A DNA stretch of 35,722 bases from Candidatus Omnitrophota bacterium (lineage in GTDB: Bacteria; Omnitrophota; Gorgyraeia; Zapsychrales; Fredricksoniimonadaceae): positions 1 to 35,722 of the forward strand of contig JABDCU010000018.1 in assembly GCA_013287965.1 (NCBI GenBank), in the 5' to 3' direction. Below the pieces are notes generated by a model. That model saw only the letters and a program-made list of their open reading frames with translations. It had not been told where the DNA came from and searched no databases. Below, one piece after another: positions 6,711-35,722 of the stretch. The translations under genes and the position numbers were made by a program. Numbering within the stretch: the first letter of the stretch is position 1; each line of letters opens with the position of its first letter.

Positions 6711-9700
6711 ATGTTTAAACGTGTCATAGCAACGCTGCTTTGCGTTACTTTTTCTTTTAGTAATCTCCAGTTGTCCCAAGCTCAGGATTTTAGCGTTAAT
6801 CAGCTTCCTCTGCCTGGCACCATGGTAGGAGAGTCCGCGCCGTTTTCACCTTTGGCCTTAAAAGGCCTTGTTGTTAATCTTCAAAAACCCTTAGAATTCC
6901 AATTCATTGTTGATACCGGAAAGGGGCCGCAGGACACTGCCACCATCAAAGATCAAGCTAATCAATTGGTTAAATATTTTTTGGCAGGCCTGACCATCCC
7001 TGAAGGTGATCTATGGGTCAATTTATCTCCTTATGAGAAGAGCCGTATGGTCCCTGCGGCGTTGGGTCAAACAGATCTAGGCAGGGATTTATTGGCCCAA
7101 GACTACATTCTCAAGCAGTTGACCGCTTCCCTAATATATCCCGAAAAAGATTTAGGCAAGGCATTTTGGAGCAGGGTGTACGCAAAAGCCCAACAGCAAT
7201 TCGGCACAACCAATGTGCCGGTCAATACCTTTAATAAGGTATGGATCCTTCCTGATCAGGCGCAAGTTTTCGAGAACGTCAATGCCGCCTATGTGACCAA
7301 ATCAACCTTGAAGGTCATGTTAGATGAAGACTATCTGGCACTTCATAAACATACGACCCAAAATAACGGCACTGATTCAATAGGATCTCAAATCGTTCGC
7401 GAAATCGTCCTCCCTGAAATAACCAAAGAAGTCAACACCGGCAAAAACTTTGCCCCGTTACGCCAAATCTATCAAGCACTCATCTTGGCCAAATGGTATA
7501 AGGAAACTATTCAAAACGGGCTTTTGGATGCTATTTATACCAATAAAAATAAAATCGCTGGCGTCAATCTAAATGATCCTGCGGTTAAAGAGCAAATTTA
7601 TGAGCGTTACCTAAAGGCCTATAAGAAGGGTGCGTTTAACTACATTAAGGAAGACCCAACGCCCGAAGGCCAAGTTGTGCCGAGGAAGTATTTTTCGGGG
7701 GGAGCATATTTTGCTGGTTACTATCATCTTGATAAAATTCACGACAGTAATGCTATGATTTCTGCAAGGAAATTAGTGGCAGGGGCACTGTTATTATTGA
7801 CCTTTATTTTGGGACCAGCAGTAAATCCAGTCTTAGCGCAAAATAATATTTCTCCTCAGGCATTTGGCGGTCCTGTGACCCAATCTCCTTCAGTATCTCC
7901 GTTGGAATTTTCTATCCCGTTGCCACAAGGGAAAATCACAACTTATAGGGAAGCGCCTCCGGCTAATACTATTCAATCAAATTATAAATATATCGATCAA
8001 ATACCCTTTGGTGATGGTTTTCATGTCCAAAAAGGATTGACGTACGCCTTTTCATTAGAAGGCAAATCGTTTGTAGATAATAAGAAGATAATTAAAGGGA
8101 AGGTACTGCTTGTCATTGAAGTAGTTTACAAATATGAGAAAGGTAAATCTGATAAAAGCTATCGTATCATTGTGGTGCCCGATGATGGAGGTCCCAGATA
8201 TTTAAAGATAGAGGAAACAAAAACGCATAAAAATGTGGTTTTGGTGGATAAAGCCATGTCGCAGGCACTGCCAAAACAAACTTCATATGTGGCGATGAAC
8301 GGACAGGTTCTATTGCCTCAGGAATCGACGACCGTGCATGTGGGGAAATGGCAAGATAAGGAAGCAACGCCCGTTGTACACATTCAATATGGCGGCAAAG
8401 AATATACACTTATTGTCTGGGAAGTGGGGAAGGATGAATTAAGAGGTCCCTATACTCCCGGACTTACAATAAAAGATATCAATGATCAGTTGCGGCAAAA
8501 GAAGATCTCAGCAAAGATTGTGTACGAGCCAGGCGGTGATTTATATGTACAGAATATATCTACGGAACAACAAAATCTGATTTTAGCCTCCCCCACTCGC
8601 ATGGCTTTTCTCAATGATAAATTCGTCCAATTTAATGCGGCGATGACAATAAAAGAAGAGAAAATGCAAAAGGCCTTAGCTTACATAGTTTGGAAAAAAG
8701 GAAGAATTAAACCACAGGAAAATAGTTTACTCAGAAGAATATTATCCGGGGAAGCCGCATATAGTCAGCTACCCGATGAAATCCGTGATGATCCGTCATT
8801 TAAAAGAACCTTTGTTTGCGCAAAGTTGATAATAGAAAGCGATGGTGGGCTTTCGGATTATTCCTTGGGAGTCATAGATATATTTCTTGAAGGCAATATT
8901 CATCGACAGGTTGTATTAGATGAATTGATCAGAAATGGGAGAATTCTTGAAAGGGCAGAACATCTTCTCGAAAGGGCCGTGCAATTAATGCAAAATCCCG
9001 ATGCGGAGATGAAGGTAGAAGAGTATCAGAGGATAGCTGATTCTCTTTTGTATAGTGAATATACGGGTTCAAGCCCGGAGAAAGATCAGGCTAAACTATT
9101 GGCATTGCGTAAATTGACAAAGCGTGTAACAGAAAAGATCGAAGAAGTTAAGGGAACAAGCGTTGTTTCTGAAGAAGAAATAAATAATGTTATGCAGCAT
9201 CTTAATGCCAAAACTGAGGAGTATAGCGAAGGGGGAAAATATACGTTTAAGATTAGAATAGATGCGGCGATGTTAGACGGTCTTAAGAAAATCATCTCAA
9301 GAAGAAAAGCACTTATAGGAATCGGGGCAGGAGCTGTAATAATAAAACAAGGTCTTAGTGAAATCTTTTTACCTTATAAAGGGATAGCAGGAAAAATAGT
9401 GATATTACCGGATAGCAGTCATTTTGATATAACAAAAGAGACTGAAATCCTTATCCATGGGGCCAATGAAAATAATATTCCTAAGAGTTTTAGTGGTATG
9501 GCCCAAGAAGCCGTGAGCAGGGGTAAAAATTTTCTTGTCTATGCCTATGATCAAAATAGTTCCATGGACGATTGGGTGGGTGATTTAATAAAAATCGTTG
9601 AGAAGTTGAAGTTGATGGCAAAGGAACAAGGTGCTGATCCGGAGAATATTGCATATATTCCATATTCAATGGGAGCGGATATTTTTTGGTATGCAGTTTT

Positions 9701-12700
9701 GAAGGAACCAAATTTATTTACGAATGTTCAAGTAAAGCAAATGGCTCCGGCTATTGGTGGCGCTCAAGAAGCAAGGGTACTCCCAAGTGTATGGCTACAA
9801 GAGCGGCTCGTTAAGTTTGGCGTTCCTTTCTTGGCCAGCAATGGCGATATTCAATTAACAAGGGTTTTACACCCTGAGGGGAAAGTAAAAATATTCGAGG
9901 ACCTTAATGTTTGTAATTTTCTTTTAAATACGGTGGGAGTGAGCAATGTCCAAACTTTTTCGCCGGATGTAGATACCGTCGTCATAGCAACTAATAGTCC
10001 ACTTCTTGGTAAGGTGACAAAGTATCCAGGTGTGGCGCATGAAAAGATCGCGGAAGACCCTCGTGTCATTCAAGCGGTCTTCGATCAGGCGATGAATGCG
10101 AATAAAATTTCTCGGCGTTTGTTTTTAAAAGGGGCCGCAGGATCACTGATGGCTCCAATGTTTCCTGGGTTTGCGTCGTCCCAAGACCTTTCTTATGAAT
10201 CTCTTTCATCAATGTCTGACCAAGAGTTGATCGCTATTATCAAAGATATAGCTGATAAAAATACGACACACTTTGATGTCATTCTTTCAAAAACGTATTT
10301 ATTCGCATCGGTTGTATTACAAGAAAGATATCGACAAAAACCAGATGCCAGGGCTGGTATAAGAAAAGGATTGATTGATGTTATGGATGATAAGAAAAAC
10401 ACTTACCTCACGACAGGGATCATGTTTCATCTGTTACGGCAATTGACAGCGGATGAGCCAAACGTTTTACTGGATTTATATAAGCGGAATCTTGCTGGCT
10501 ATGATCAGGAGTATTTATACCTTAAACAAATTTTTGAAAGCCCAATATTTTTGCGTAAGAACATTACAGAAGCAGAGGCCCGGGTGGCTTTAAACGGGCT
10601 GATATCTTCCTCCAGGAAGATTTTCGCAAGTTATAAAACAGCTGGAATAAAATTTAAGAGCCCTCTTTATAAAATTTTGCGGGCGGAACATTATTCATCC
10701 AGTATTTTCTTCCTGGTCCATCGTTACGTTAATTTCTTTATCCGGCAGCAAGACCGTATGAAATTAAAAGCCGATCAAATGCCCGGATTAAAAGTAACAT
10801 CAGCCAGCCAGATAAGGCAGAAACTCAAGGACGTTTTTGTAAATTCACAATCCGTTGGTGTTAGTGCAGGTATAGAAAATGCTAATGCAGGAGGGTATTT
10901 GAACCCTGGTTACCTGGCTCATGTTCAGGATCTAATAGAATTTTATGATATTCTCTGGCATGAATATGGACATAATGATGTTGATGATCAGGCCCCCTGG
11001 CTCCAAGAATCAATGGATAAAAATATCAGGAATGGTGAGCGTCTTCAAAATTTGCAAGGAATACATGAGTTAGGCGGCGACATTGAGGCAGTGGTCATCT
11101 CGATGATGGAAGGGGCCGGGGAGAAGGCTTATTTGAAATTCTTAAGCTCTCTTGAAAGATCTGTTGCTGACGGTGAGATCAATGAACAATTTCAGATTTT
11201 TGATTTGCTTGCAGATGAAAAGCCAAAGGAAATAGTGCCCGAAGAGCTTTATTCCAAATTTATTAATATAACAAATATGGAAGCCCATGCGTTTTCAAGG
11301 GGGTTTTTATCATGGCTTGTATCCACCAGTCCAGGGCATGGAGGGATTTTGCGTGATTTTACAGATTGGGTGCTCCTGTATGTTTCTTATAACGAAGTCC
11401 TTGATGAGTTTGGTAAAATCCCAGGAGGCCCTGTCGTAGGAGATGATTTTTTTATGAAATTTAAAGACAGGGTCGTTGAAAAATATAAGCAAAAAAGAAG
11501 CCAGAGAAAAACCCTGCCCCCTAAACTCGGCGGGATTTATCCTAATATCATATTGAATGCGCAAAGATTTCAGATGATTGATGCGGCGATGACAAATAAG
11601 AAATCGGCCGGTTCCAACAAAACGAAATCAAACAAAAAAGCCTTGAAGGCGAGTGGCCAACAAAAGACTTTTGACCCAAGCAGAAGGACATTCTTAAAGA
11701 AAGGCGGTGTTTGGGTGACAGGTGGGGTTCTGGCGACGGCTGTTTTCGGAGGAGGGGGATATTGGTGGTGGAACCGATCATCTGTCCCTTTAACTTCTAC
11801 TGCCGAATGGCCTGTGAATTTTCATTTTATTTTTAATGCTCATGCAGGGGCCATCGACAATCAACAAATCGCGGATGCATGGGCGAAAGTGACCCCAGGC
11901 CAGCCTATCATATGGTTTATGGAGGATATTCGTGACGTTAATTTTCTTCTTTCTGGTGTTAGAGAAAGTATTCGACTTCTCTCTCCATCAGACCGCCAAC
12001 GTTTTTTTGCGGAGATGGGATGGGGCGCTGGAACGTCAGTTGCAGACGCGATGGAGCAGCTGGATAAAGACGAAAGATTATTTGTTAATGCCAAAGGGGA
12101 AGAAATTCTTACGAGCGGCTATATTAGAGAGCGGATCAATTTTTATATGAGATATTTTAGCCTTATGAAGCAACAATTTGTCCTTAATCCATTTGATCCG
12201 GTTACGCAAGAAAACATGCCATTAGTAAAAGCCTATCCGATATATAAGCCGAGAATTGAAATAGAAGGCGTTAGTCTGGAAGCAGCTGTTGAGCAATTGG
12301 CAAGTGAGCAGTTTCAGAAAGAAGCCTATAATGCTCTTTTAAAAGAAAAAAATGAGGAAAAGTATTTTTACAATATGGAAAAATATTTGGAGGCAGACTT
12401 TAGGTTTAATCAGTTGCGGGATAAAAACGTGGTCGAACAATTACAGGCCATTGCCCGTAACCCGCAGAATAAAGGGACGACTATTATTGTCAGTCGGGGT
12501 GACTGGCATTACATCACATTACGGGACGATATTGAAACGTTCCGTCAAAAAACGAATGGAGTAACGCTTGATTTGCAAAGCAATCCACAACAAGATACTC
12601 AAAAAATTAGAATCAGAGATTTTGTTGAGTTAAGCCATTTCAGAAATGGTGTATATCATACAAATGATCCTATAGATAAAGACCAATTAAAACGCATACT

Positions 12701-13319
12701 TATTGAAGATATTTTATCTAGAAGTTTTAGCGCTTCTTTTACAGGGTCTAAATTCCAATTATATAAGTTCCCCGAAAAAGAAGGTCCATCAGCTTATCAT
12801 CAAGCAATACGTGTAATTTTATCAGGTTTAACGGGGGATACGCTTGACGAGTTTATTAGTTCAATACAAAATAACCCTTTTGGGCCGGATGCTGATTATT
12901 TTGCATTGGCTGTTTATATAATTGAACAGCTGAGAAAATTTAATAGAGTCACAGAGGATGAGTTACAAAGACTGTTCCTTAGGGTTTCTTTGCTTGATAA
13001 AGGAAATTTGGCCGAAATTGATGTCGAAATGCCTAATGGAAAGATCCAAAAGTTTGGCTTTCCCTATAAGCATACTGGAGGTAACCGCGCTATGATTGAG
13101 AACGAAAAAGGCGGTATTGATCTTAACCAGATCAACGTCCTTCGGGGTGGCAGGAAGGTGCTTGTCCAATTTGACCCGGCCCAGCTTAATGAATTAGAAC
13201 AAAGTGATTTTAGAGGCTTTACTCCAGTGATCACCGGTTTTCAATATATCTCAAGTCCCTTCCCGTTACTCGGCATCAATCGTCCTGCCAAAGATTCGGT
13301 TTTGCTCGCAAAAGCGTAG
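6711..13319 (+). CDS. giant exported multi-module (polyprotein-like) protein, Omnitrophota type
   Basis: The 2202-residue product starts with a Sec signal peptide (cleavage near SQAQ, residue 25). Residues 26-340 match a region I recall from large Omnitrophota proteins (LWVNLSPYEKSR, GRDLLAQDYILKQLTASL, FNKVWI, PRKYFSGG). A second signal-like helix lies at 350-375. Residues 880-1120 resemble an alpha/beta hydrolase (LIHGANENN, PYSMG in place of GxSxG, late His). A zinc-peptidase-like HEYGH sits at 1417-1421 with HELGGD at 1452-1457. Twin-arginine motifs occur at 864-865, 1135-1136 (SRRLFLKG) and 1658-1659 (SRRTFLKK, then a hydrophobic helix). A motif [D/N]xAM recurs at 347-349, 642, 851, 1125, 1624 and 2125. 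The C-terminus has GGIDLN. The gene looks AT-richer than its neighbours. The function is unknown; the frame itself is certain. Confidence 0.9.
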   Translation: MFKRVIATLLCVTFSFSNLQLSQAQDFSVNQLPLPGTMVGESAPFSPLALKGLVVNLQKPLEFQFIVDTGKGPQDTATIKDQANQLVKYFLAGLTIPEGDLWVNLSPYEKSRMVPAALGQTDLGRDLLAQDYILKQLTASLIYPEKDLGKAFWSRVYAKAQQQFGTTNVPVNTFNKVWILPDQAQVFENVNAAYVTKSTLKVMLDEDYLALHKHTTQNNGTDSIGSQIVREIVLPEITKEVNTGKNFAPLRQIYQALILAKWYKETIQNGLLDAIYTNKNKIAGVNLNDPAVKEQIYERYLKAYKKGAFNYIKEDPTPEGQVVPRKYFSGGAYFAGYYHLDKIHDSNAMISARKLVAGALLLLTFILGPAVNPVLAQNNISPQAFGGPVTQSPSVSPLEFSIPLPQGKITTYREAPPANTIQSNYKYIDQIPFGDGFHVQKGLTYAFSLEGKSFVDNKKIIKGKVLLVIEVVYKYEKGKSDKSYRIIVVPDDGGPRYLKIEETKTHKNVVLVDKAMSQALPKQTSYVAMNGQVLLPQESTTVHVGKWQDKEATPVVHIQYGGKEYTLIVWEVGKDELRGPYTPGLTIKDINDQLRQKKISAKIVYEPGGDLYVQNISTEQQNLILASPTRMAFLNDKFVQFNAAMTIKEEKMQKALAYIVWKKGRIKPQENSLLRRILSGEAAYSQLPDEIRDDPSFKRTFVCAKLIIESDGGLSDYSLGVIDIFLEGNIHRQVVLDELIRNGRILERAEHLLERAVQLMQNPDAEMKVEEYQRIADSLLYSEYTGSSPEKDQAKLLALRKLTKRVTEKIEEVKGTSVVSEEEINNVMQHLNAKTEEYSEGGKYTFKIRIDAAMLDGLKKIISRRKALIGIGAGAVIIKQGLSEIFLPYKGIAGKIVILPDSSHFDITKETEILIHGANENNIPKSFSGMAQEAVSRGKNFLVYAYDQNSSMDDWVGDLIKIVEKLKLMAKEQGADPENIAYIPYSMGADIFWYAVLKEPNLFTNVQVKQMAPAIGGAQEARVLPSVWLQERLVKFGVPFLASNGDIQLTRVLHPEGKVKIFEDLNVCNFLLNTVGVSNVQTFSPDVDTVVIATNSPLLGKVTKYPGVAHEKIAEDPRVIQAVFDQAMNANKISRRLFLKGAAGSLMAPMFPGFASSQDLSYESLSSMSDQELIAIIKDIADKNTTHFDVILSKTYLFASVVLQERYRQKPDARAGIRKGLIDVMDDKKNTYLTTGIMFHLLRQLTADEPNVLLDLYKRNLAGYDQEYLYLKQIFESPIFLRKNITEAEARVALNGLISSSRKIFASYKTAGIKFKSPLYKILRAEHYSSSIFFLVHRYVNFFIRQQDRMKLKADQMPGLKVTSASQIRQKLKDVFVNSQSVGVSAGIENANAGGYLNPGYLAHVQDLIEFYDILWHEYGHNDVDDQAPWLQESMDKNIRNGERLQNLQGIHELGGDIEAVVISMMEGAGEKAYLKFLSSLERSVADGEINEQFQIFDLLADEKPKEIVPEELYSKFINITNMEAHAFSRGFLSWLVSTSPGHGGILRDFTDWVLLYVSYNEVLDEFGKIPGGPVVGDDFFMKFKDRVVEKYKQKRSQRKTLPPKLGGIYPNIILNAQRFQMIDAAMTNKKSAGSNKTKSNKKALKASGQQKTFDPSRRTFLKKGGVWVTGGVLATAVFGGGGYWWWNRSSVPLTSTAEWPVNFHFIFNAHAGAIDNQQIADAWAKVTPGQPIIWFMEDIRDVNFLLSGVRESIRLLSPSDRQRFFAEMGWGAGTSVADAMEQLDKDERLFVNAKGEEILTSGYIRERINFYMRYFSLMKQQFVLNPFDPVTQENMPLVKAYPIYKPRIEIEGVSLEAAVEQLASEQFQKEAYNALLKEKNEEKYFYNMEKYLEADFRFNQLRDKNVVEQLQAIARNPQNKGTTIIVSRGDWHYITLRDDIETFRQKTNGVTLDLQSNPQQDTQKIRIRDFVELSHFRNGVYHTNDPIDKDQLKRILIEDILSRSFSASFTGSKFQLYKFPEKEGPSAYHQAIRVILSGLTGDTLDEFISSIQNNPFGPDADYFALAVYIIEQLRKFNRVTEDELQRLFLRVSLLDKGNLAEIDVEMPNGKIQKFGFPYKHTGGNRAMIENEKGGIDLNQINVLRGGRKVLVQFDPAQLNELEQSDFRGFTPVITGFQYISSPFPLLGINRPAKDSVLLAKA

Positions 13320-23885: not shown

Positions 23886-24464
23886 ATGGCCAAAGAATCC
23901 GCAGAAGAAAAGTTGCTGAAGATGATGCAAAAATCCTCACCTTCCGCCGCTGCCAAGCCGCCGGCGTCCCCTAAAAAGAAATTCCAGTTCACCTTCAGTG
24001 TCGGCCTTTTAAACACGCTTTTATTTTTCGGCATCATTGCCTGCATCATCGCCCTGGCCCTTGAGATGCACAATGGTTTTTCATTGCTTGGTCAGCCGGT
24101 TGAATTTACTCTCGGGTCCAAAACAGGTCCTTCATTGTCTGATGTCGCCTTGCCCTCACTCCAAAGCGCTGATTATTATCTGAAGCAGATCAACGAGCGT
24201 AATATTTTTAAACCGTACGTCGCTAAAACGGCTGTAAAAGCGGCAGCACAAGGCCTGGTGCAGCAGATGGCCAAGTATAAACTGGTGGGCATCTCGTGGC
24301 TGGATCTACCGGAAACAGCTTCGATCATGATCGAAGACATACAGAAAAAAACAACTTTCTTTCTTAAGCAAGGTGAACAATTAGAAGGCGTCACTGTCAA
24401 GACCATCTATACGGATAGAGCGGTCTTCAGTCACGAAAATGAGGAGATAACAATCAAGCTATGA
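23886..24464 (+). CDS. GspC-like inner-membrane secretion protein
   Basis: The 192-residue protein has a short cytoplasmic N-terminus rich in Pro, Ala and Lys, then one membrane helix (about 42-60). A periplasmic domain typical of GspC homology regions follows: 'LKQINERNIFKPY', 'LVGISWLDLPETASIMIEDIQKKTTFFLKQGEQLEGVTVKTI', 'DRAVF'. In type II secretion systems this protein links the inner-membrane platform to the secretin. It has no PDZ or coiled-coil extension. Its stop overlaps the secretin start as ATGA, which supports the assignment. Other T2SS genes (GspE, F, G and so on) are not in the window. Confidence 0.82.
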   Translation: MAKESAEEKLLKMMQKSSPSAAAKPPASPKKKFQFTFSVGLLNTLLFFGIIACIIALALEMHNGFSLLGQPVEFTLGSKTGPSLSDVALPSLQSADYYLKQINERNIFKPYVAKTAVKAAAQGLVQQMAKYKLVGISWLDLPETASIMIEDIQKKTTFFLKQGEQLEGVTVKTIYTDRAVFSHENEEITIKL

Positions 24465-26131
24465 GCAAACACATTCCCTTCCCCAAGTTCCTGATTATTT
24501 TTTTGATCGGCCTTACCGGCTCGATCGCGTATTTCACGTTTGCCAAAGCGCAAACGGACGATGAGGGGGCCCAGGCGATCAAGCCCATCATGATGACGGA
24601 GCCAAAGGACTCGTTAGAGGACCGGATGGCCCGCAAGATCACGCTCGATGTGCGCGACATGAACATCGTGGACGTGATCAAATTCCTTGCCCAAAAGGGG
24701 GAATTTAACGTCATCATTTCCCCGTCGGTGGAGGGCCGAAGCACGGTGCTCCTTCACGACGTGGACATCAAGGACGCCCTGGACATTGTGATCATGTCCA
24801 ATAAATTGGCGTACCATATTGATGATGATATCGTCCAGATCATGGGCGCGGGTGAATACGAGTCCATGTACGGCAAACAGTTTAACGATAAGACACAGGT
24901 GAGCATCATCCATCTGCAATATGCCAAGCCCAGTTATGTGCTGGCGGCACTTGACAATATACGCAGCAACCGCGGCAAGATCATCATTGACGAAGACACC
25001 GGTTCCGTGGTTTTAGTGGACACTCCCCAGTCAATCATCGCGATGAAAAAAATGATCGCGCAGATCGAGCAGCCGCTGGACACCATGGTTTTTGACCTGA
25101 AATACGCCAAAGCGGATGTGATCGCTGAAAAATTGCGCACCCGTATCGATGCCAAGGCCGTGGGTACCATTACCGCGGATGAGCGTTCCAATGAGATCCT
25201 GGTACGCGTGTTCCCGGGACGCCGTGATGAAGTGCAAAAGGTCATCAGCAGTTTGGACGTCCCCACCAAAGAAGTTTTGATCGAGGCCCGCGTCCTGCAG
25301 GTCGAATTTAACCCCACCTTTGATGTCGGGATGGACATCACAGCCCCGATAGTCAGCGGCGGAAAGCATCCATTCAGTCTGCAGAGTGTGGCCCTCGGTG
25401 AGAATGCCGGTTTGGACGCCTCGGCCCCGTCCGGTTCCTCAGCAAGTTTAGCGTCGACCTTCGGCAGGATCGGCGTGGGTAATATGAACGGCGGTGCTTT
25501 TACAGCGGCCATACGCGCTTTAAAGCAGGTCAGCGATACCAAGATCCTTTCCACTCCCCAGATCCTGGTGACCAATAATGAAGAGGCCAAGATCCATATC
25601 GGGGACACTGTTCCTTATATTGTGGCCACCACCAATGGTACGGGAGAAAACGCGATCACCTCTGATGACGTGCGTTTCGTTGATGTCGGCATCAAATTAA
25701 GCGTCATCCCGACTATCAATGATGACGGTATGATCACCATGAAGCTGACCCCGGAAATTTCTGAAGTGGTTAAATCAGTCACTTCCGCTGAAGGCAGCAC
25801 CATCCCCGAAGTGGACAAGACCGAAGTGGAAACCTCGGTCATGGTCAAGGACGGACAGACCATTGTCCTGGCCGGCTTGCGCAATCAAAATAAAGTGCAT
25901 ACGAAACATGGTGTCCCCGGACTGATGGACATTCCTTTCATAGGCGGGGCCTTCTCGCGCACTTCCGACGCGATCACCAACCAGGAGATCATTATTTTGA
26001 TCACTCCCCATATTGTTAAAGGCGGCGATGGTTATGAAAAACCGATAGGTACCATCAAAGGGGCCAAAACATATAACGACAGTGTTCAACCGGAAGAGCC
26101 TGCTGCAGCGGCGGGCGCCGGAGCCAAATAA
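24461..26131 (+). CDS. secretin (GspD/PilQ family outer-membrane channel)
   Basis: The 556-residue protein has an N-terminal membrane or signal segment (about 8-28). An N0/STN-like domain follows (LDVRDMNIVDVIKFLAQKGEFNVIISPSVEG). Two N-domains come next, one containing LKYAKADVIAEKLRTRI, and then the C-terminal secretin core: LIEARVLQVEF, ILSTPQILVTNNEEAKIHIGDTVPY, VGIKLSVIPTI, and MVKDGQTIVLAGLRN...GVPGLMDIPFIGGAFS, IILITPHIV. It forms a gated outer-membrane channel. The tail ends in an Ala-rich stretch. It follows the GspC-like gene by direct overlap and precedes a TPR gene, so it probably exports proteins encoded downstream. Confidence 0.94.
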   Translation: MSKHIPFPKFLIIFLIGLTGSIAYFTFAKAQTDDEGAQAIKPIMMTEPKDSLEDRMARKITLDVRDMNIVDVIKFLAQKGEFNVIISPSVEGRSTVLLHDVDIKDALDIVIMSNKLAYHIDDDIVQIMGAGEYESMYGKQFNDKTQVSIIHLQYAKPSYVLAALDNIRSNRGKIIIDEDTGSVVLVDTPQSIIAMKKMIAQIEQPLDTMVFDLKYAKADVIAEKLRTRIDAKAVGTITADERSNEILVRVFPGRRDEVQKVISSLDVPTKEVLIEARVLQVEFNPTFDVGMDITAPIVSGGKHPFSLQSVALGENAGLDASAPSGSSASLASTFGRIGVGNMNGGAFTAAIRALKQVSDTKILSTPQILVTNNEEAKIHIGDTVPYIVATTNGTGENAITSDDVRFVDVGIKLSVIPTINDDGMITMKLTPEISEVVKSVTSAEGSTIPEVDKTEVETSVMVKDGQTIVLAGLRNQNKVHTKHGVPGLMDIPFIGGAFSRTSDAITNQEIIILITPHIVKGGDGYEKPIGTIKGAKTYNDSVQPEEPAAAAGAGAK

Positions 26132-26154: not shown

Positions 26155-26952
26155 ATGGGCAAATTATGTAAAGAATTCTTAAGTAGAGTTAAACCCGCGG
26201 CGCTAAAGAGATGGGGTGTTTCCTTAGGCGTGATTTTTATTTTTGCCCTTGGAGGAAACGCTCCCCGCGCGCATGCCCAGGATGCCGCAGATGTGGCGCC
26301 GCCCCAGCAGACCGTGGGCAGTGCTGCTGATGAATCACAGGCTGAACGCGAGGAATTTGTCAAGGAGATCCGCCGGGTGGAAAATCTTAATAAGAAATAT
26401 ACCCAGGAGATCCAGGACATCCGCTCCCTTTTGGCTGACAAAGATGCTGATTACCAAAAACGCATGCAGGACCTGGAAGATAAATTGGCAGCCCAGCAGG
26501 ATGACAGCTCTAAAAAGGAAGTCACCCAGGAGCAGAGCCAGGCCACGACCCAGGAACTGGAAGCCAAGACCAATGAAATGCTCTCTAAAGGCGGGGACAT
26601 GGACCCGCAGGACCAGAATTTCAGGGCAGAGCTGGCCAAGGCCCACTACAACATGGGAAATATTTATTTCCAGCGCGGCGAGTATCAGCGGGCCGTCGTG
26701 GAATATTACCAGGCAGTGGACCTGACGCCCAATGACCCGGACACCCATTACAATCTGGCCTTTGTCAGCGGCGAGTATTTAGGCGACCAGGAAACCGCCC
26801 TTAAGCATTATCAATGGTATCTGTACCTGAAACCTGACGCGGCGGATGTGGACACTGTCAAAGAAAAGATCATACAGGCCAAGTTCTCTTTGCGCAGCAA
26901 AATTGAATCCCCATTGGAACAAAATGACGGTAATTTTAATTTAACCCGTTAG
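26155..26952 (+). CDS. exported coiled-coil/TPR protein
   Basis: The 265-residue protein has a signal peptide-like N-terminus (VSLGVIFIFALGGNAPRAHAQ). A coiled-coil region of about residues 55-145 is rich in Gln, Lys and Glu. Two or three TPR units follow (AHYNMGNIYFQRGEYQRAVVEYYQAVDLTPNDPDTHYNLAFVSGEYLGDQETALKHYQWYLYLKP). Such proteins are scaffolds; next to a secretin, a pilotin or assembly role is plausible but not shown. It lies 23 bp after the secretin gene with the purine-rich stretch AAGGACGGAGA upstream of the ATG. Confidence 0.85.
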   Translation: MGKLCKEFLSRVKPAALKRWGVSLGVIFIFALGGNAPRAHAQDAADVAPPQQTVGSAADESQAEREEFVKEIRRVENLNKKYTQEIQDIRSLLADKDADYQKRMQDLEDKLAAQQDDSSKKEVTQEQSQATTQELEAKTNEMLSKGGDMDPQDQNFRAELAKAHYNMGNIYFQRGEYQRAVVEYYQAVDLTPNDPDTHYNLAFVSGEYLGDQETALKHYQWYLYLKPDAADVDTVKEKIIQAKFSLRSKIESPLEQNDGNFNLTR

Positions 26953-28539: not shown

Positions 28540-30179
28540 AAATATTTTTATGGCGGTTGTTTTTTGCCTTACTGCGTGTTGTGCGGCATGGGCCAGTAAT
28601 TTGCAATTAAGCAATTTGGATGAAGTCAGCGCCAACACGGCGGCTGGCACCATCACCTTTTCTTGTAATTTGACACAGGACAACAGCTGGCGCACGCAAA
28701 CCAACTTCGACGCTGTTTGGGTTTTTATGAAATATTCGACGGACGGCGGGGCAACATGGAAGCACGCTTCGATGGCAGGATCCGGTGTCAATCCGGCCGG
28801 CTTTTCCATCCCCACGCAATTCCAGAGCCAATTTGAGATCTTTGTTCCTTCTGATCAAAAAGGATTTTTTGTGCAAAGGTCAGGCCAGGCCGTGGGAAGT
28901 GTTGCTTTGACAGGTGTCCAATTTGTTTGGAATTATGGTTTGGACGGGGTTTCAGCGGCAATGGCCCAGGCAGCGAATACCTTGCATACCATTTATGGCA
29001 TTGAAATGGTCTATATTCCTCAAGGTGCTTTTTACGCGGGGGATGGGTCTTCGAACAGTTCAACAGAATATGCTTTCACGCAGGGCAGCACGGTCACAAC
29101 CCCATGGTATATTCAAAATGAAAATGCCATCCAGACGACGGGGGGGGGCGAGTGCCACTTATTATTATCAAAATACCGGGGCCAAGGGCGATGAATTCTC
29201 CAGCGGGGCTTCATTTTTGGTACCGGCTTCTTTTCCTAAAGGTTTTGGGGCTTTTTATTTAATGAAATATGAATTGACCGAAGGCCAATGGGTGGCGTTT
29301 TTTAATACGCTTTCCGCGACGGCCAAGCCGTATCGTGATATCACTTCAGGCGGCGCGCGGGTGGGCGGCAAGAATTCCCAGGGTGTTGTTAATCGCAATA
29401 CTATTTCCTGGAATTCCGCGATACCGACCTCTGAGGCGACGACATTAAGGCCTTCGCGTCCGGTCAGCTATGTGTCCTGGCCTGATGTGGCGGCTTATGC
29501 CGAGTGGGCAGGTCTTCGTCCGATCACTGAATTGGAATATGAAAAAGCGGCGCGCGGCACGGACATTCCGGCTACTCCGGGTGAATTTGTTTGGGGCACA
29601 ACAGCGCTCACAGCGCCGAGCCCCGGCGACATTGTTCCCGGCACGGATGAAAATGGCGCGGAAACCTTGAGCGATACGGCGAATATCAATAATAACTCGC
29701 TTCCCTGGACTTCGGGTGACGGCCGCAGCGGCGGGATCGCCGCCGGGCAAGCAGGGCCTTTGCGTGTCGGTATTTTCGCGGCGAGCACCACTAATTCCAC
29801 CAATCCCCGTGTCAGCAGTGGTGCCGGATTTTACGGCAACATGGAACTTTCCGGGAATTTGGCAGAGCCGGTGGTGACCGTGGGCAGGCCTGAGGGACTT
29901 GGTTTTCAGGGTACGGATGGCACAGGGACCTTGACCTCTTTAGGTTTTGCCACCAATACGGATTGGCCGGGCATAGATTCGAACAATGCCAATGGGGTGG
30001 ATGGCACCGTCGGCATCGGCTATCGGGGCGGGGATTTTCAGTCGCCTGGCTCGATCATTTATGCGACGTCCGCGAGGCCCTACGCGGCCAAAGATCCGGA
30101 TTCACAGAGTTGTTTAGAGCGGTATGATCCAAGTTGTGGTGTTTTTCAAGGCGGTCGTTTAGGTAGAAATGCGTCATAG
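28526..30179 (+). CDS. exported FGE-sulfatase-fold protein 2, frameshifted at a poly-G run
   Basis: This paralogue of the previous gene is split into two frames. The first reads from ATG 28526 through a signal peptide, the NSWRTQTNFDAVWVFMKY beta domain and the start of the FGE domain, then ends at 29194 with CHLLLSKYRGQGR. The second frame carries the rest of the FGE domain to 30179 (SFLVPASFPKGFGAFYLMKYELTEGQW ... GYRGG). The switch falls at nine G (29140-29148). Removal of one G restores a protein of about 550 residues aligned with its neighbour throughout. It may be slipped-strand phase variation or a sequencing error. The start overlaps the upstream stop by 14 bp. No canonical active-site cysteines are visible. 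Confidence 0.85.
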
Positions 30180-30188
30180 AAATATTGA

Positions 30189-33100
30189 ATGTCTTATAAA
30201 AACCAGCGTTTAAAAATGAATTCAAGACACTGCCCATGGAAAATTTTTGCCTTTTTGGCATTTTTCATGGGCGGAGCTTTCGTTTCCGTAGGCTTTGCGC
30301 AATACAGCGGCGGGGACCAAACCACCGGTGATGCGCAGTCTTCCATCGGCAGTGATATCTACAGCGGCGGATCGCAGAATAATTCTCCCTATTCCACTTC
30401 AGGATCACAGGGGGCCTTGTCTTATGGAACGCCGGTTAAGCTTGCCTTTATAACCAGCCCGTCCGATACCAATCACTCGATTCCATTTTCACGTCAGCCA
30501 GTCGTGGCTGTTGAAGATGCTTATGGTAATGTCGTTGCTAATGACAATACCGATCAGGTGACAGTAGCTATCTTAAGTAATCCTGGTAATGGTACTTTGT
30601 TGGGTACAACTACGGTTCAAGTTGTCAATGGTCTGGCCCAATTTACCAATTTGGCCATTAATACGTCCGGCCAATTGTATTCTCTTCAAGCCACATCCGG
30701 CACGCTTACTCCCGGAACATCTGCACCTTTTACTATAAACCCTGGTACCGGCCCTAAAGCTGCTGCTATTTGGAGTAATAGTAATAGTGCCTATTACATT
30801 TATGTATGGGTTGAGAATGATAACGCAAGATTAGCTTTTGATGATCCTACTAATAGTGATACATGTTCTGTAAAAATTTATAATCCGGGTGGTACTGTGA
30901 ATACTACCTTAGGCACAGCTTCTTTTACAGCTAATGGCCCCGCTGAAGTCCCTCCTAATACTTGTATATCAACCAGTACATGGACACCAGGAGCTGCTTC
31001 CTCAGGTGCTTTAGCTAATGGTTATACGGCTACGGTAACGGTAACTGGAACGACACCTTGTAATAGTGGTTGTACCGCTACGATTCCTTTCCCATTAACC
31101 GGCAGCGGAACAGTTATTCAAGATTCTCTCGGGAACACCATCAACTGGCAGGATATCGGGGCCATCAAAGCTACTCTTAACTGGCAGGATATTAAGGCCA
31201 TCAAAGCCAGTACCGATAACATCTGTTGGACAGATATTGCAACTCTAAAGACCAATGTCTCTTCAATTATAACAACCCTTGGTAATACTATCGGCAAAAC
31301 AGGTATTAACTGGGATGACTTCAATGTGCAAACTAATGTTGGCATTAATTGGAAAGACATTGCTGCATTGACGGTGAAAGGTGTCAACTGGGCTGATTTT
31401 ACCGTCCTTTCCAATATCGGTGTTAATTGGGGGAATTTTAGCGTTTTAACAAAAAGCGGGATCAATTGGTCGGACCTCCAAAAGATGCATAGTTTGGGCA
31501 TCAACTGGAATGACTTTGCTGTTCTTTCCAAAGCCGGTATCAATTGGGATGATCTGGCCATCATGGGTAAGACAGGCATTAACTGGTATGACATGACGAT
31601 CATAACCACTGCCGGCGTTGTCTGGTCTACAGGGATCAATTGGTATGACCTGGCGGCTTTGAGTAGTGTTGGTGTCAATTGGTCAGATCTGACGGTCTTG
31701 TCGGTCAATAATATCAATTGGTATGATCTTCGTGTGATGAGTGATGTCGGGATCAATTGGTATGATTTTAATGTTTTAACCAGGACAGGCATTAATTGGA
31801 ATGATTTTGGAGTAATGGGGAAGATAGGCATTAACTGGGGTGATTTTGGAGTATTGAGCAAGACAGGGATCAATTGGAATGACTTTGGGGTACTTTCTAA
31901 GGCAGGTGTCAATTGGTATGACATGAACGTGTTGACTCGCACGGGCATTAATTGGAATGATTTCGGGGTGCTTTCTAAGGTAGGAGTGAACTGGTATGAC
32001 ATGAACGTGTTGACCAAATCAGGAATTAACTGGAATGATTTTGGGGTGCTGAGCCGCACAGGCATTAACTGGAGTGATTTTGGGGTATTGAGCAAGACAG
32101 GGATCAATTGGTCTGATTTTGGGGTATTAAGCAAGGCAGGAATAAATTGGAATGATTTGAATGTTTTAAGCCGTACAGGTATCAATTGGTCTGATTTTGG
32201 AGTGCTAAGTAAGATAGGTGTGAATTGGTCGGATATGAACGTGTTGACCCGTTCGGGAATTAATTGGAATGATTTTGGGGTACTTTCTAAAGTAGGAGTG
32301 AATTGGTATGACATGAACGTGTTGACTCGCACAGGCGTTAACTGGAATGATTTTGGGGTATTAACCAAGGCAGGAGTGAATTGGAATGACTTTGGGGTCT
32401 TAAGCAAGACAGGTGTCAACTGGAATGATATTGATGTGGTCAGTCGTATCGGAATTAATTGGAGTGATTTTGGGATATTAAGCAAGGTGGGTGTTAATTG
32501 GTACGACATGAATGTGTTGACCCGCACGGGGCTGAATTGGAATGATTTTCAAGTCATAAGCCATACAGGCATTAACTGGAATGATTTTGGGGTGTTAAGC
32601 AAGGCAGGTATTAATTGGAATGACATGAACGTGTTGACCCGCACAGGACTCAATTGGAATGACCTTCAAGTATTAACAACGACGGGAATTAACTGGAGTG
32701 ATTTGGGCAGTTTCGTGAATACATTATCTGAAGCAGGTATCAACTGGAGCGATCTGGCGGTGATGACCAAGACAGGTATGAATTGGTCGGATCTGTCAGT
32801 ATTGACCAAGACGGGTATCAACTGGAATGATTTTGGAGTGATGGGTCGTGCAGGCATTAATTGGAATGACTTTGGAGTGTTAAGCAAGACAGGCATTAAC
32901 TGGAGCGACGTGTACGTGGTCAGCCGCACAGGCATCAACTGGAATGATTTTGGGGTACTTTCTAAGGTAGGGGTCAATTGGTATGACATGAATGTTTTGA
33001 CCCGCACCGGTGTTAATTGGAATGATTTGGACGTCCTTTCCAGGGTAGGAGTGAATTGGTACGACATGAACGTGTTGACCCGTAACGGGATCAACTGGAA

Positions 33101-35722
33101 TGATTTTGGGGTGTTAAGTAAGGCAGGTGTTAATTGGAATGATTTTGGGGTTTTAGGCAAGACAGGGATCAACTGGAGTGATTTTGGGGTATTAAGCCGT
33201 ATGGGCGTTAACTGGAATGACTTTGGGGTATTAACCAAGGCAGGTGTTAATTGGAACGACTTGGGGACACTTTCCAAGGTGGGTGTCAATTGGTATGACA
33301 TGAACGTGTTAACACGTAACGGGATCAACTGGAATGACTTTGGAGTAATGAGCAAGGTAGGGGTGAATTGGTATGACATGAATGTCTTAAGCCGGACTGG
33401 AATTAATTGGAATGACATTAATGTTGTTAGCCGGACCGGAATTAACTGGAATGATTTTGGGGTAATGAGTAAGGCAGGGGTCAATTGGAATGATTTTGGA
33501 GTGTTGAGTACTTCTGGGATCAACTGGAGTGACATGAACGTGTTGACCCGTATAGGCGTTAATTGGAGTGACTTTGGAGTAATGAGTAAGACAGGTGTTA
33601 ATTGGAATGATTTCGGGGTACTTTCCAAGGTAGGAGTGAATTGGAATGATATGAATGTGTTGACTCGCACCGGCGTTAATTGGAGCGACCTGGGAGTGCT
33701 TTCTAAGGTAGGAGTGAATTGGTACGACATGAATGTGTTGACCCGTAACGGGATCAACTGGAATGATTTTGGGGTATTAAGTAAGGCAGGCGTGAATTGG
33801 AATGACATGAACGTGTTGACCAAGACGGGCATTAACTGGAGTGATTTTGGAGTGTTAAGCAAGACAGGGATCAACTGGAATGATTTTGGAGTGATGGGTA
33901 AGGTGGGAATTAATTGGAACGACTTTGGGGTACTCTCTAAGGTAGGAGTGAATTGGAATGATATGAACGTATTAACGCGTACGGGCATTAACTGGAATGA
34001 TTTTGGGGTACTTTCCAAGGTAGGCGTTAATTGGTATGACATGAACGTGTTGACCCGTACGGGTGTTAATTGGAGTGATTTGAACGTGCTTTCCAGGATA
34101 GGTGTGAATTGGTACGACATGAACGTCTTGACCCGCACGGGTGTTAATTGGAATGATTTTGGGGTACTTTCCAGGGTAGGTGTCAATTGGTATGACATGA
34201 ATGTGTTGACACATAACGGGATTAACTGGAATGATTTTGGAGTATTAACTAAGGCAGGAGTTAACTGGAATGATTTTGGGGTCTTAAGCAAGACAGGTAT
34301 CAACTGGAATGATATCAATGTGGTTAGCCGCACGGGAATTAATTGGAGCGATTTTGGAGTGCTGAGCAAGACAGGAATCAACTGGAGTGACTTTGGGGTA
34401 CTCTCTAAGGTAGGAGTGAATTGGAATGATATGAACGTTTTAACGCGTACGGGCATTAACTGGAATGATTTCGGGGTACTTTCTAAGGTGGGTGTCAATT
34501 GGTATGACATGAATGTTTTGACCCGTACCGGTGTTAATTGGAATGATTTGAACGTGCTTTCCAGAATTGGAGTGAATTGGAATGACATGAATGTTTTGAC
34601 CCGCACAGGCATTAACTGGAGCGATTTTGGGGTCATGAGCAGGACAGGAATCAACTGGAATGATTTTGGAGTCTTAAGTAAGACAGGGGTCAATTGGAAT
34701 GATATGTATGTGTTAAGTCGTACAGGAGTCAACTGGAGTGATTTCGGAGTATTAAGTACTATAGGCATTAATTGGAATGATTTGGGAGTGTTGAGCAAGA
34801 TAGGGGTCAATTGGAATGATATGAACGTGGTAAGCCGCACAGGGATCAATTGGAATGATTTTGGGGTGCTTTCGAAGGTGGGAGTAAATTGGTATGACAT
34901 GAACGTCTTGACCCGTACCGGTGTTAATTGGAATGATTTGGGAGTGCTTTCTAAGGTAGGTGTCAATTGGTATGACATGAATGTGCTGACACATAACGGG
35001 ATCAACTGGAACGATTTTGGGGTCTTAACTAAGGCAGGAGTTAACTGGAATGATTTTGGGGTTTTAAGCAAGACGGGTATCAACTGGAATGATATCAATG
35101 TGGTTAGCCGCACGGGAATTAATTGGAGCGACTTTGGAGTATTAAGCAGGACAGGTATTAACTGGAATGATTTTGGAGTGTTAAGCAAGACAGGTGTCAA
35201 TTGGAATGACTTAAATGTATTGACCCGCATAGGTGTTAATTGGGGTGATTTTGGGGTCTTAAGCAAGGTGGGAGTGAATTGGTATGACATGAATGTTTTA
35301 ACACGCGTCGGAGTGAATTGGAATGACATGAATGTGTTAACGCGCACGGGCATTAATTGGAATGATTTTGGAGTTCTAAGTAAGGCGGGAGTGAATTGGA
35401 ATGATATGAATGTGTTAACGCGCACGGGCATTAATTGGAATGATTTTGGAGTGCTAAGTAAGGCGGGAGTGAATTGGAATGACATGAACGTGTTGACCCG
35501 TATCGGTATTAATTGGAATGACTTGAACGTGCTTTCTAGGATTGGAGTGAATTGGAATGACATGAATGTGTTAACGCGCACGGGCATTAATTGGAATGAT
35601 TTTGGAGTGTTAAGCAAGACAGGTGTCAACTGGAATGACTTTGGAGTATTGAGCAAGGCAGGTGTCAACTGGAATGATATCAATGTGGTTAGCCGTACGG
35701 GAATTAATTGGAATGATTTTGG
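30189..35722 (+). CDS. giant exported protein with 13-residue NW-repeats (partial, runs off window)
   Basis: The frame starts at ATG 30189 (alternative 30216) and stays open for 1844 codons to the window end. A signal peptide (WKIFAFLAFFMGGAFVSVGFAQ) is followed by a Ser/Gly-rich stretch. Next is an Ig-like domain at about 77-180, with QPVVAVEDAYGN, VTVAIL, GTLLGTTTVQVVNGLAQFTNL. A second beta-rich Thr/Asn region follows to about 310. Degenerate repeats begin near residue 315 (TINWQDIGAIKA), and regular 13-residue units run from 31302 to the end. I know of no named family for the repeat. The N-terminal part is visibly richer in A/T than the FGE genes. It is probably a surface or secreted fibre; its association with the upstream secretin is inferred from order. 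Confidence 0.92.
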   Translation, partial: MSYKNQRLKMNSRHCPWKIFAFLAFFMGGAFVSVGFAQYSGGDQTTGDAQSSIGSDIYSGGSQNNSPYSTSGSQGALSYGTPVKLAFITSPSDTNHSIPFSRQPVVAVEDAYGNVVANDNTDQVTVAILSNPGNGTLLGTTTVQVVNGLAQFTNLAINTSGQLYSLQATSGTLTPGTSAPFTINPGTGPKAAAIWSNSNSAYYIYVWVENDNARLAFDDPTNSDTCSVKIYNPGGTVNTTLGTASFTANGPAEVPPNTCISTSTWTPGAASSGALANGYTATVTVTGTTPCNSGCTATIPFPLTGSGTVIQDSLGNTINWQDIGAIKATLNWQDIKAIKASTDNICWTDIATLKTNVSSIITTLGNTIGKTGINWDDFNVQTNVGINWKDIAALTVKGVNWADFTVLSNIGVNWGNFSVLTKSGINWSDLQKMHSLGINWNDFAVLSKAGINWDDLAIMGKTGINWYDMTIITTAGVVWSTGINWYDLAALSSVGVNWSDLTVLSVNNINWYDLRVMSDVGINWYDFNVLTRTGINWNDFGVMGKIGINWGDFGVLSKTGINWNDFGVLSKAGVNWYDMNVLTRTGINWNDFGVLSKVGVNWYDMNVLTKSGINWNDFGVLSRTGINWSDFGVLSKTGINWSDFGVLSKAGINWNDLNVLSRTGINWSDFGVLSKIGVNWSDMNVLTRSGINWNDFGVLSKVGVNWYDMNVLTRTGVNWNDFGVLTKAGVNWNDFGVLSKTGVNWNDIDVVSRIGINWSDFGILSKVGVNWYDMNVLTRTGLNWNDFQVISHTGINWNDFGVLSKAGINWNDMNVLTRTGLNWNDLQVLTTTGINWSDLGSFVNTLSEAGINWSDLAVMTKTGMNWSDLSVLTKTGINWNDFGVMGRAGINWNDFGVLSKTGINWSDVYVVSRTGINWNDFGVLSKVGVNWYDMNVLTRTGVNWNDLDVLSRVGVNWYDMNVLTRNGINWNDFGVLSKAGVNWNDFGVLGKTGINWSDFGVLSRMGVNWNDFGVLTKAGVNWNDLGTLSKVGVNWYDMNVLTRNGINWNDFGVMSKVGVNWYDMNVLSRTGINWNDINVVSRTGINWNDFGVMSKAGVNWNDFGVLSTSGINWSDMNVLTRIGVNWSDFGVMSKTGVNWNDFGVLSKVGVNWNDMNVLTRTGVNWSDLGVLSKVGVNWYDMNVLTRNGINWNDFGVLSKAGVNWNDMNVLTKTGINWSDFGVLSKTGINWNDFGVMGKVGINWNDFGVLSKVGVNWNDMNVLTRTGINWNDFGVLSKVGVNWYDMNVLTRTGVNWSDLNVLSRIGVNWYDMNVLTRTGVNWNDFGVLSRVGVNWYDMNVLTHNGINWNDFGVLTKAGVNWNDFGVLSKTGINWNDINVVSRTGINWSDFGVLSKTGINWSDFGVLSKVGVNWNDMNVLTRTGINWNDFGVLSKVGVNWYDMNVLTRTGVNWNDLNVLSRIGVNWNDMNVLTRTGINWSDFGVMSRTGINWNDFGVLSKTGVNWNDMYVLSRTGVNWSDFGVLSTIGINWNDLGVLSKIGVNWNDMNVVSRTGINWNDFGVLSKVGVNWYDMNVLTRTGVNWNDLGVLSKVGVNWYDMNVLTHNGINWNDFGVLTKAGVNWNDFGVLSKTGINWNDINVVSRTGINWSDFGVLSRTGINWNDFGVLSKTGVNWNDLNVLTRIGVNWGDFGVLSKVGVNWYDMNVLTRVGVNWNDMNVLTRTGINWNDFGVLSKAGVNWNDMNVLTRTGINWNDFGVLSKAGVNWNDMNVLTRIGINWNDLNVLSRIGVNWNDMNVLTRTGINWNDFGVLSKTGVNWNDFGVLSKAGVNWNDINVVSRTGINWNDF
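31302..35722 (+). repeat. 39-bp coding tandem repeat array (over 110 units)
   Basis: The unit is 39 bp and encodes G-[IV]-N-W-[NYS]-D-[FML]-[GN]-V-[LMV]-[ST]-[KR]-x. Two main types alternate: 'GINWNDFGVLSKx' and 'GVNWYDMNVLTRx', giving a 78-bp higher-order period in places. The array continues past the window. Breaks in register occur near 31615 (extra GVVWST) and near 32700 (LGSFVNTLSEA), both multiples of three. Degenerate units occupy 31131-31301. The reverse strand has long open frames here purely because the unit has no stops in that frame. Confidence 0.96.

Follow-up and report, generated by a model that had tools for sequence, protein, structure and literature searches.

A giant gene of 13-residue Trp-Asp repeats in the Omnitrophota and its place before an F-type ATPase and pilus-type gene cluster in relatives

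Very large surface proteins are part of the gliding machinery of Mycoplasma mobile. For the movement itself, an F1-like ATPase has been proposed as the driver (PMC8406192, PMC11864180, available parts of both). In the Omnitrophota, a second, non-respiratory F-type ATPase lies at most 10 kb from type-4 pilus genes on 57 of the 66 contigs with both, and its alpha subunit groups with the mollicute type-2 and type-3 ATPases; the available sections of that study present this enzyme as a puzzle (PMC10066038). They treat the giant open reading frames of the phylum as a separate, poorly conserved trait that is hard to interpret (Seymour et al. 2023, PMC10066038).

The stretch of DNA analyzed here, called the window, is an entire contig (G000:C18, 35,722 bases). 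It probably carries the front part of a giant secreted component of this 'symbiotic' F-type ATPase/type-4-pilus-like locus of the Omnitrophota. The main new point concerns the body of that component: in one clade of alpha subunits, an array of 13-residue units appears to replace another giant body. The published locus thus seems to accommodate at least two interchangeable bodies, the array being one of them.

The array gene and its 13-residue unit

The open reading frame at 30189-35722 (+) starts with an ATG at 30189 and runs over 1844 codons, stop-free to the end of the window. As the window is the whole contig, this array frame was cut by the assembly: it is the 5' part of a giant gene, unfinished as first described. 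By a hydropathy scan, residues 1-37 (30189-30299), with a hydrophobic stretch at residues 19-37, fit the predicted signal peptide. The non-repeat N-terminal region that follows (30300-31136) is conserved in relatives, with an identity of 36-62% over most of its length in the same genus and G013; in G016 and G026 the identity is 47-48% and confined to a part. The original prediction placed one Ig-like domain here, which found no support: region 30276-31139 matches no Pfam family at E <= 0.01 and no PDB sequence at E <= 1.

Three irregular Trp-Asp units (31137-31268) precede the array proper (31302-35722), composed of 113 full-length units and a partial one with the consensus G-[IV]-N-W-x-D-[FML]-x-V-[LM]-[ST]-[KR]-x. 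The frame contains 121 tryptophans, and 111 of the 120 Trp-Trp spacings are of 13 residues. When residues 371-1844 are shuffled, this number drops to a mean of 3.4, with a maximum of 11 in 2000 trials. The nine other spacings are distributed ahead of the repeats (178, 12, 58 and 55), among the irregular first units (12, 15 and 28) and within the array (6 and 17). The giant Trp-repeat gene and its more than 110 copies are therefore confirmed; the 'strictly' 13-residue period holds for the array proper except at the two last-named places, and one of the full-length units, which start at residue 372, overlaps its neighbor at the spacing of 6. The start of the unit and its Asp are nearly invariant, as had been noticed: Gly1 and Asn3 are each present in 112 of the 113 units and Asp6 in 111, Trp4 being invariant by construction, because the units were located by their Trp.

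Two types of unit alternate in the window array: type-B units are neighbors once, against 8.1 times in shuffles (P = 1e-4), and unit identity is 0.66 at lag 2 versus 0.58 at lag 1. A general 26-residue double unit was rejected, as 13 other array pieces have nothing comparable. On the opposite strand, a frame of 1018 codons is open at 32666-35722 (-), apparently a by-product of the codon pattern of the array. Elsewhere in the window, positions 6711-13319 encode a protein of 2202 residues whose start resembles a signal peptide; no Pfam family matches it over cut-off.

At the DNA level, 110 of 112 units are distinct, and they encode 74 protein variants. Comparison of all 6216 unit pairs, whose synonymous sites are saturated, gives a dN/dS of 0.087. 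Six-unit blocks reach 93% DNA identity, showing that blocks of units were duplicated. From 42 non-redundant six-unit pairs (DNA identity >= 76%), the 25 most similar, chosen for that similarity, give pooled values of dS 0.92 and dN 0.078, a ratio of 0.085, and the closest pair has a dS of 0.37 and a dN of 0.016. Codon agreement between single units is near random (0.444 vs. 0.412); an early reading, that the DNA memory of duplications is lost, was dropped because of the six-unit blocks. The array could also have arisen from satellite DNA without a role for the protein, or be a frame in decay, given the tandem DNA repeats of 39 bases and multiples thereof and the antisense strand open over 1018 codons. 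This is scarcely credible in view of the ratio of about 0.085 at unsaturated dS, the 110 DNA forms that reduce to 74 in protein, and the frame of a relative that runs over 10,972 codons without a stop. The sequence comparison agrees with the earlier proposal that the protein is under selection: the low dN/dS between six-unit blocks indicates that selection preserves the protein pattern of the array after duplication.

No convincing relative of the 13-residue unit was identified among Pfam, NCBIfam, PHROGs or PDB sequences, in line with the original prediction, which had named a match to a characterized family as the outcome that would speak against it. Formally, two such matches exist: with the whole frame, Lysostaphin_N (PF25533) and Pox_A31 are both above their Pfam cut-offs. 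They are judged to be effects of the repeat period, since, of five arrays in which the units had been permuted or reversed, four match unrelated families over cut-off, and a fully shuffled array matches none in Pfam. The repeats of lysostaphin have a period of 13 residues as well, and membership of the array in this N-terminal repeat family would be backed by the 77.9 bits of the whole frame against a cut-off of 60. Yet a stretch of 30 units scores 37 bits, missing that cut-off, and Pox_A31, judged unrelated, is likewise above its own; membership is very improbable. As PF25533 itself was matched by none of the five permuted or reversed arrays, the disproof is incomplete. Matches to CbiE and RimP (NCBIfam, below cut-off) and to phrog_33062 (PHROGs, 44 bits) were distrusted, like the best PDB match of the array profile (E 0.0012), a chain with a 13-residue repeating stretch that is presumably a tandem Myc tag. 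Among viral contigs, no relative was confirmed.

Gene order in the window and in relatives

Upstream of the array gene, all on the forward strand, the window encodes a small protein (23886-24464) with a weak GspC-like match (E 0.007, far below cut-off), a secretin (24461-26131; PF00263, 162 bits, over cut-off, with the NCBIfam models PilQ and GspD below theirs), a TPR protein (26155-26952), for which PilW and Tgl are the nearest NCBIfam models, below cut-off, and two FGE-fold genes (PF03781; 26965-28539 and 28547-30104). The second of these is a single frame in G003 and two frames in the window, meeting near 29142 (the open reading frame at 28914-30179 is the 3' part); this split is either an assembly error or a broken copy. 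The same upstream order was found within the stretches fetched from G003, G006, G002, G004, G013, G026 and G016. These secretin, TPR and FGE-fold neighbors, together with protein B and the F-type ATPase of the relatives, tell more about function than the repeat itself.

In its own assembly (1.52 Mb, 50 contigs, 69.5% complete), array matches are confined to the window contig. The array is present in 34 of 55 genomes, this one included, and in 54 of 384 genomes drawn across the phylum. Assignment to the Omnitrophota, suggested from the start, is borne out by the names of 16 records with array loci: 14 are Omnitrophota, Omnitrophica or Omnitrophus, one is Gastranaerophilales and one simply 'bacterium'. 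The Gastranaerophilales record (L037, JAQUYY010000182.1) is a 4.3-kb low-coverage array contig, perhaps misbinned Omnitrophota DNA.

Most of the fetched array contigs break within the array. The sole complete array gene, on G016:C70, has a frame of 10,972 codons, that is 10,958 residues from the first Met, with 794 Trp-centered units after residue 400; this relative supports the suspicion that the full gene of the window may be far longer than the visible part. For the genus of the window, array pieces of 4037 and 1976 codons were found in G003, and of 3161 and 3267 codons in G006, each pair seemingly belonging to one gene. Behind the array follow about 235 C-terminal residues, which a low-confidence model shows as helical and which end at the stop with the motif [KE][TS][WY][FY]E (for example, VVVKTWFESEE).

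Directly behind the giant gene, the relatives encode protein B, of about 440 residues and with two related domains, a signal-peptide-like N-terminal segment, one C-terminal membrane segment and a short charged tail. The order that follows, read in G003, G002 and G016, is alpha, epsilon, c-like, a second small two-helix protein, b-delta, gamma and beta, and then PilB/GspE-like, GspF-like, peptidase-like, pseudopilin-like, GspK, PilM/PilN and PilO-like genes. The cluster contains the genes of all five F1-type subunits and a c-like protein of 76 residues (PF00137, 27.7 bits vs. a cut-off of 24). Epsilon is exactly at its limit (27.0 bits, cut-off 27), and the b-delta protein has an OSCP match over cut-off and a b match below. 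Alpha exceeds the cut-off of the atpA model TIGR00962 (510.5 vs. 484.45 bits) and stays below that of the gliding model NF045863 of the MMOB1660 family (389.6 vs. 600 bits).

No a subunit (PF00119) was found in the cluster. Of 11 genomes searched, eight with the array contain exactly one match, always on a different contig from the array; G010 and G011, both array-less, also contain one apiece, and in G034, which has the array, there is none. Two different small two-helix proteins were observed per cluster in the nine clusters viewed (L049 9072-9556 and equivalents), the second with a Glu in helix 2 in eight of the nine, the exception being G013; G116 and G103 have only one such protein.

Among the pilus-type genes of the relatives, T2SSE, T2SSF, T2SSK, PilM and PilN are over their Pfam cut-offs; PilO (21.9 vs. 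22), T2SSJ and N_methyl are just or clearly below, as is the pseudopilin-like protein. The pilus- or T2SS-type genes that define the Omnitrophota locus were hence found, the secretin in the window and the rest in relatives. One contig, G016:C70, carries the complete array gene together with secretin, TPR and two FGE-fold genes upstream of it, and B, the ATPase, PilB/GspE-like, GspF-like, GspK and PilM/PilN genes downstream. The G026 assembly lacks the ATPase half of the cluster. On another contig (L112, G005:C72, 3-476), three array units fuse in frame into the end of a b-delta-like sequence, followed by gamma; this junction is probably a misassembly, or a deletion between the array and the ATPase genes.

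Linkage to the ATPase and exchange of the giant body

A strong match to B was found in 28 of the 55 genomes, and in all 28 an alpha gene lies behind it, sharing its contig and strand. Sequence upstream of B is available in 26 of them, where the C-terminal motif is present in every case and array units in 25; the G008 contig starts within the C-terminal region, and the two remaining contigs start in B. In the 55 genomes, array and array-type alpha occur together in 28, array alone in six, alpha alone in two and neither in 19 (p = 1.1e-7). The corresponding numbers for the 384 genomes are 44, 10, 6 and 324 (p = 2e-41), alpha being counted at E <= 1e-170, a threshold fixed after the data had been seen; both tables were counted by hand.

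Of the 10 array-only genomes among the 384, eight end inside the array at the C-terminal-side contig end (contig-end cases: G000, G015, G026, G034, G042, G055, G074 and G373), and G085 has an alpha of the array clade just beyond the threshold of 1e-170. The alpha-only genomes are G008, G028, G107, G355, G221 and G284; for the first two, the contig starts no further upstream than the C-terminal region or B. The assembly of the window itself, 69.5% complete, yielded neither B nor array-type alpha. The tenth array-only genome, G371 (L213, G371:C120), is a real exception: its array gene has the C-terminal motif at its end and is followed by other genes, with no B or alpha in the approximately 4.4 kb of contig behind it (tblastn, 1e-3). 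Hence, an array gene need not be followed by the ATPase, and the 26 upstream ends are blind to such cases, because they were chosen through B. By eye, the genes behind the G371 array are two small CBS-domain-like ones and the start of a membrane-pyrophosphatase-like one.

A quick maximum-likelihood tree of alpha was calculated from 70 chosen rows (42 from array genomes, 25 other cluster alphas and three respiratory ones). The 67 cluster alphas and the three respiratory ones lie on separate sides of the tree, so that the relatives possess the distinct second alpha of the published locus. Every one of the 42 array rows falls, together with six others, in a single clade of 48 rows (SH-aLRT 100). 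The array label changes six times on this tree, compared to a shuffle mean of 22.2, and none of 500 shuffles was as low. One genus, g250, is mixed: G059 has the array and an array-type alpha, and G119, G115 and G072 have no array and another alpha type. The link between array and alpha is therefore not simple taxonomy.

The loci without the array are mostly occupied as well. In 20 of 23 such loci (20 with enough contig upstream of alpha and three others), another giant protein takes the place before alpha. In 14 of the 23, a giant repeat protein and the B domain form one frame, of which 1297 to 5459 codons lie on the contigs and which closes with a membrane segment followed by a short tail; in five (G243, G274, G218, G051 and G308), B is separate from a giant frame of which 2633 to 5061 codons lie on the contigs. 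The frame of the 20th giant, in G334, is broken by masked bases and counted with neither form. Neither form was seen in G108, G127 and G125, the last two being single-contig genomes in which the 13 kb (G127) and 11 kb (G125) before alpha contain no giant frame with B. These giants share with the array gene the place before alpha and a B domain at or behind the C-terminus, and differ in their other body and in B being mostly fused. The one body tested, of G040, has Ig-like repeats (PF10342, 33.2 bits, cut-off 24.6); it is matched more than once by 17 of the 20 non-array giants and once by G144, G274 and G099. The fused genes suggest that giant protein and B work together.

The giant protein could, nevertheless, be a passive adhesin or coat that the pilus-type genes export and that spreads on the surface, without the ATPase ever acting on it. 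The available parts of the literature suggest that giant Omnitrophota frames encode adhesins, coats or weapons at the cell surface (PMC10066038, PMC12057145); moreover, the cluster holds the secretin, PilB/GspE-like, GspF-like, GspK and PilM/N genes that export would use, and the G371 array gene has neither B nor the ATPase behind it. Such a purely passive role is nonetheless unlikely, if worth serious attention, as the giant/B pair stands directly before alpha in the 26 B-anchored loci and in 20 of the 23 non-array loci, and the type of alpha tracks the type of body in the sampled tree.

Putative role and comparison with known systems

The gene order of the relatives suggests a long surface fiber, part of a machine that grips or moves on other cells. 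Its basis lies at the level of sequence: gene order, co-occurrence, fused and split forms, selection and predicted membrane segments. Each 13-residue unit would fold into a single short helix, so that the array makes up a long stalk. The C-terminus of the giant protein would dock on B in the inner membrane, a step proposed because giant and B domain are one polypeptide in relatives with the other body. The N-terminus may exit the cell through the secretin encoded upstream, and the stalk may attach to other cells or surfaces. Its base would adjoin the ATPase, which may power export, retraction or movement.

Two AlphaFold models, both of low confidence (pLDDT 38.6 and 43.0), place a helix in each of 16 units (array model) and in most units (second model). 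In addition, N-x-x-D at positions 3-6 and the Gly at the joint may act as helix caps. A beta-solenoid or other beta structure is possible, though the less expected outcome: hydrophobic residues alternate at positions 13, 2 and 4, and the hydrophobic moment at 140-180 degrees equals that at 100-120 for parts of the unit, against the helices of the two models and the cap-like residues. The role as a surface fiber would be unchanged and is compatible with either fold.

A bolder version of the fiber proposal is that a rotary F-type motor lacking its own proton channel hydrolyzes ATP to turn, pull or extend a giant fiber, which is held at its C-terminal end by B in the inner membrane and threaded through the secretin. 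This is speculative and rather doubtful; if true, it would describe a leg- or winch-like device with exchangeable bodies, by which a two-membrane cell grips prey or hosts. Independently of such a motor, a recurring gene order links the giant frames to the second F-type ATPase and to a membrane-anchored partner, B, which is kept while the giant body varies. This tie makes the role of the giant proteins and of the extra ATPases testable with short, expressible parts, pairing B either with the giant C-terminal region or with subunits of the ATPase.

The closest described system is the locus of Seymour et al., a 'symbiotic' type-2/3 F-type ATPase with a type-4a pilus, which shares with the array locus the second F-type ATPase beside pilus-type genes, the giant frames and the phylum. 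In its available parts, that article places no giant frame in the ATPase locus and describes neither the 13-residue unit, nor B, nor giants fused to B or split from it (Seymour et al. 2023, PMC10066038). No description of these three was found in the accessible parts of the open-access literature searched. With M. mobile, the array locus has in common very large proteins, at the surface there and probably here, and, as far as the available parts of the gliding literature go, an F1-like ATPase, proposed there to drive movement. Unlike that of M. mobile in these sources, the array cluster keeps epsilon, c-like and b-delta proteins, its alpha scores below the gliding-family cut-off (NF045863), and a secretin and pilus-type genes adjoin it.
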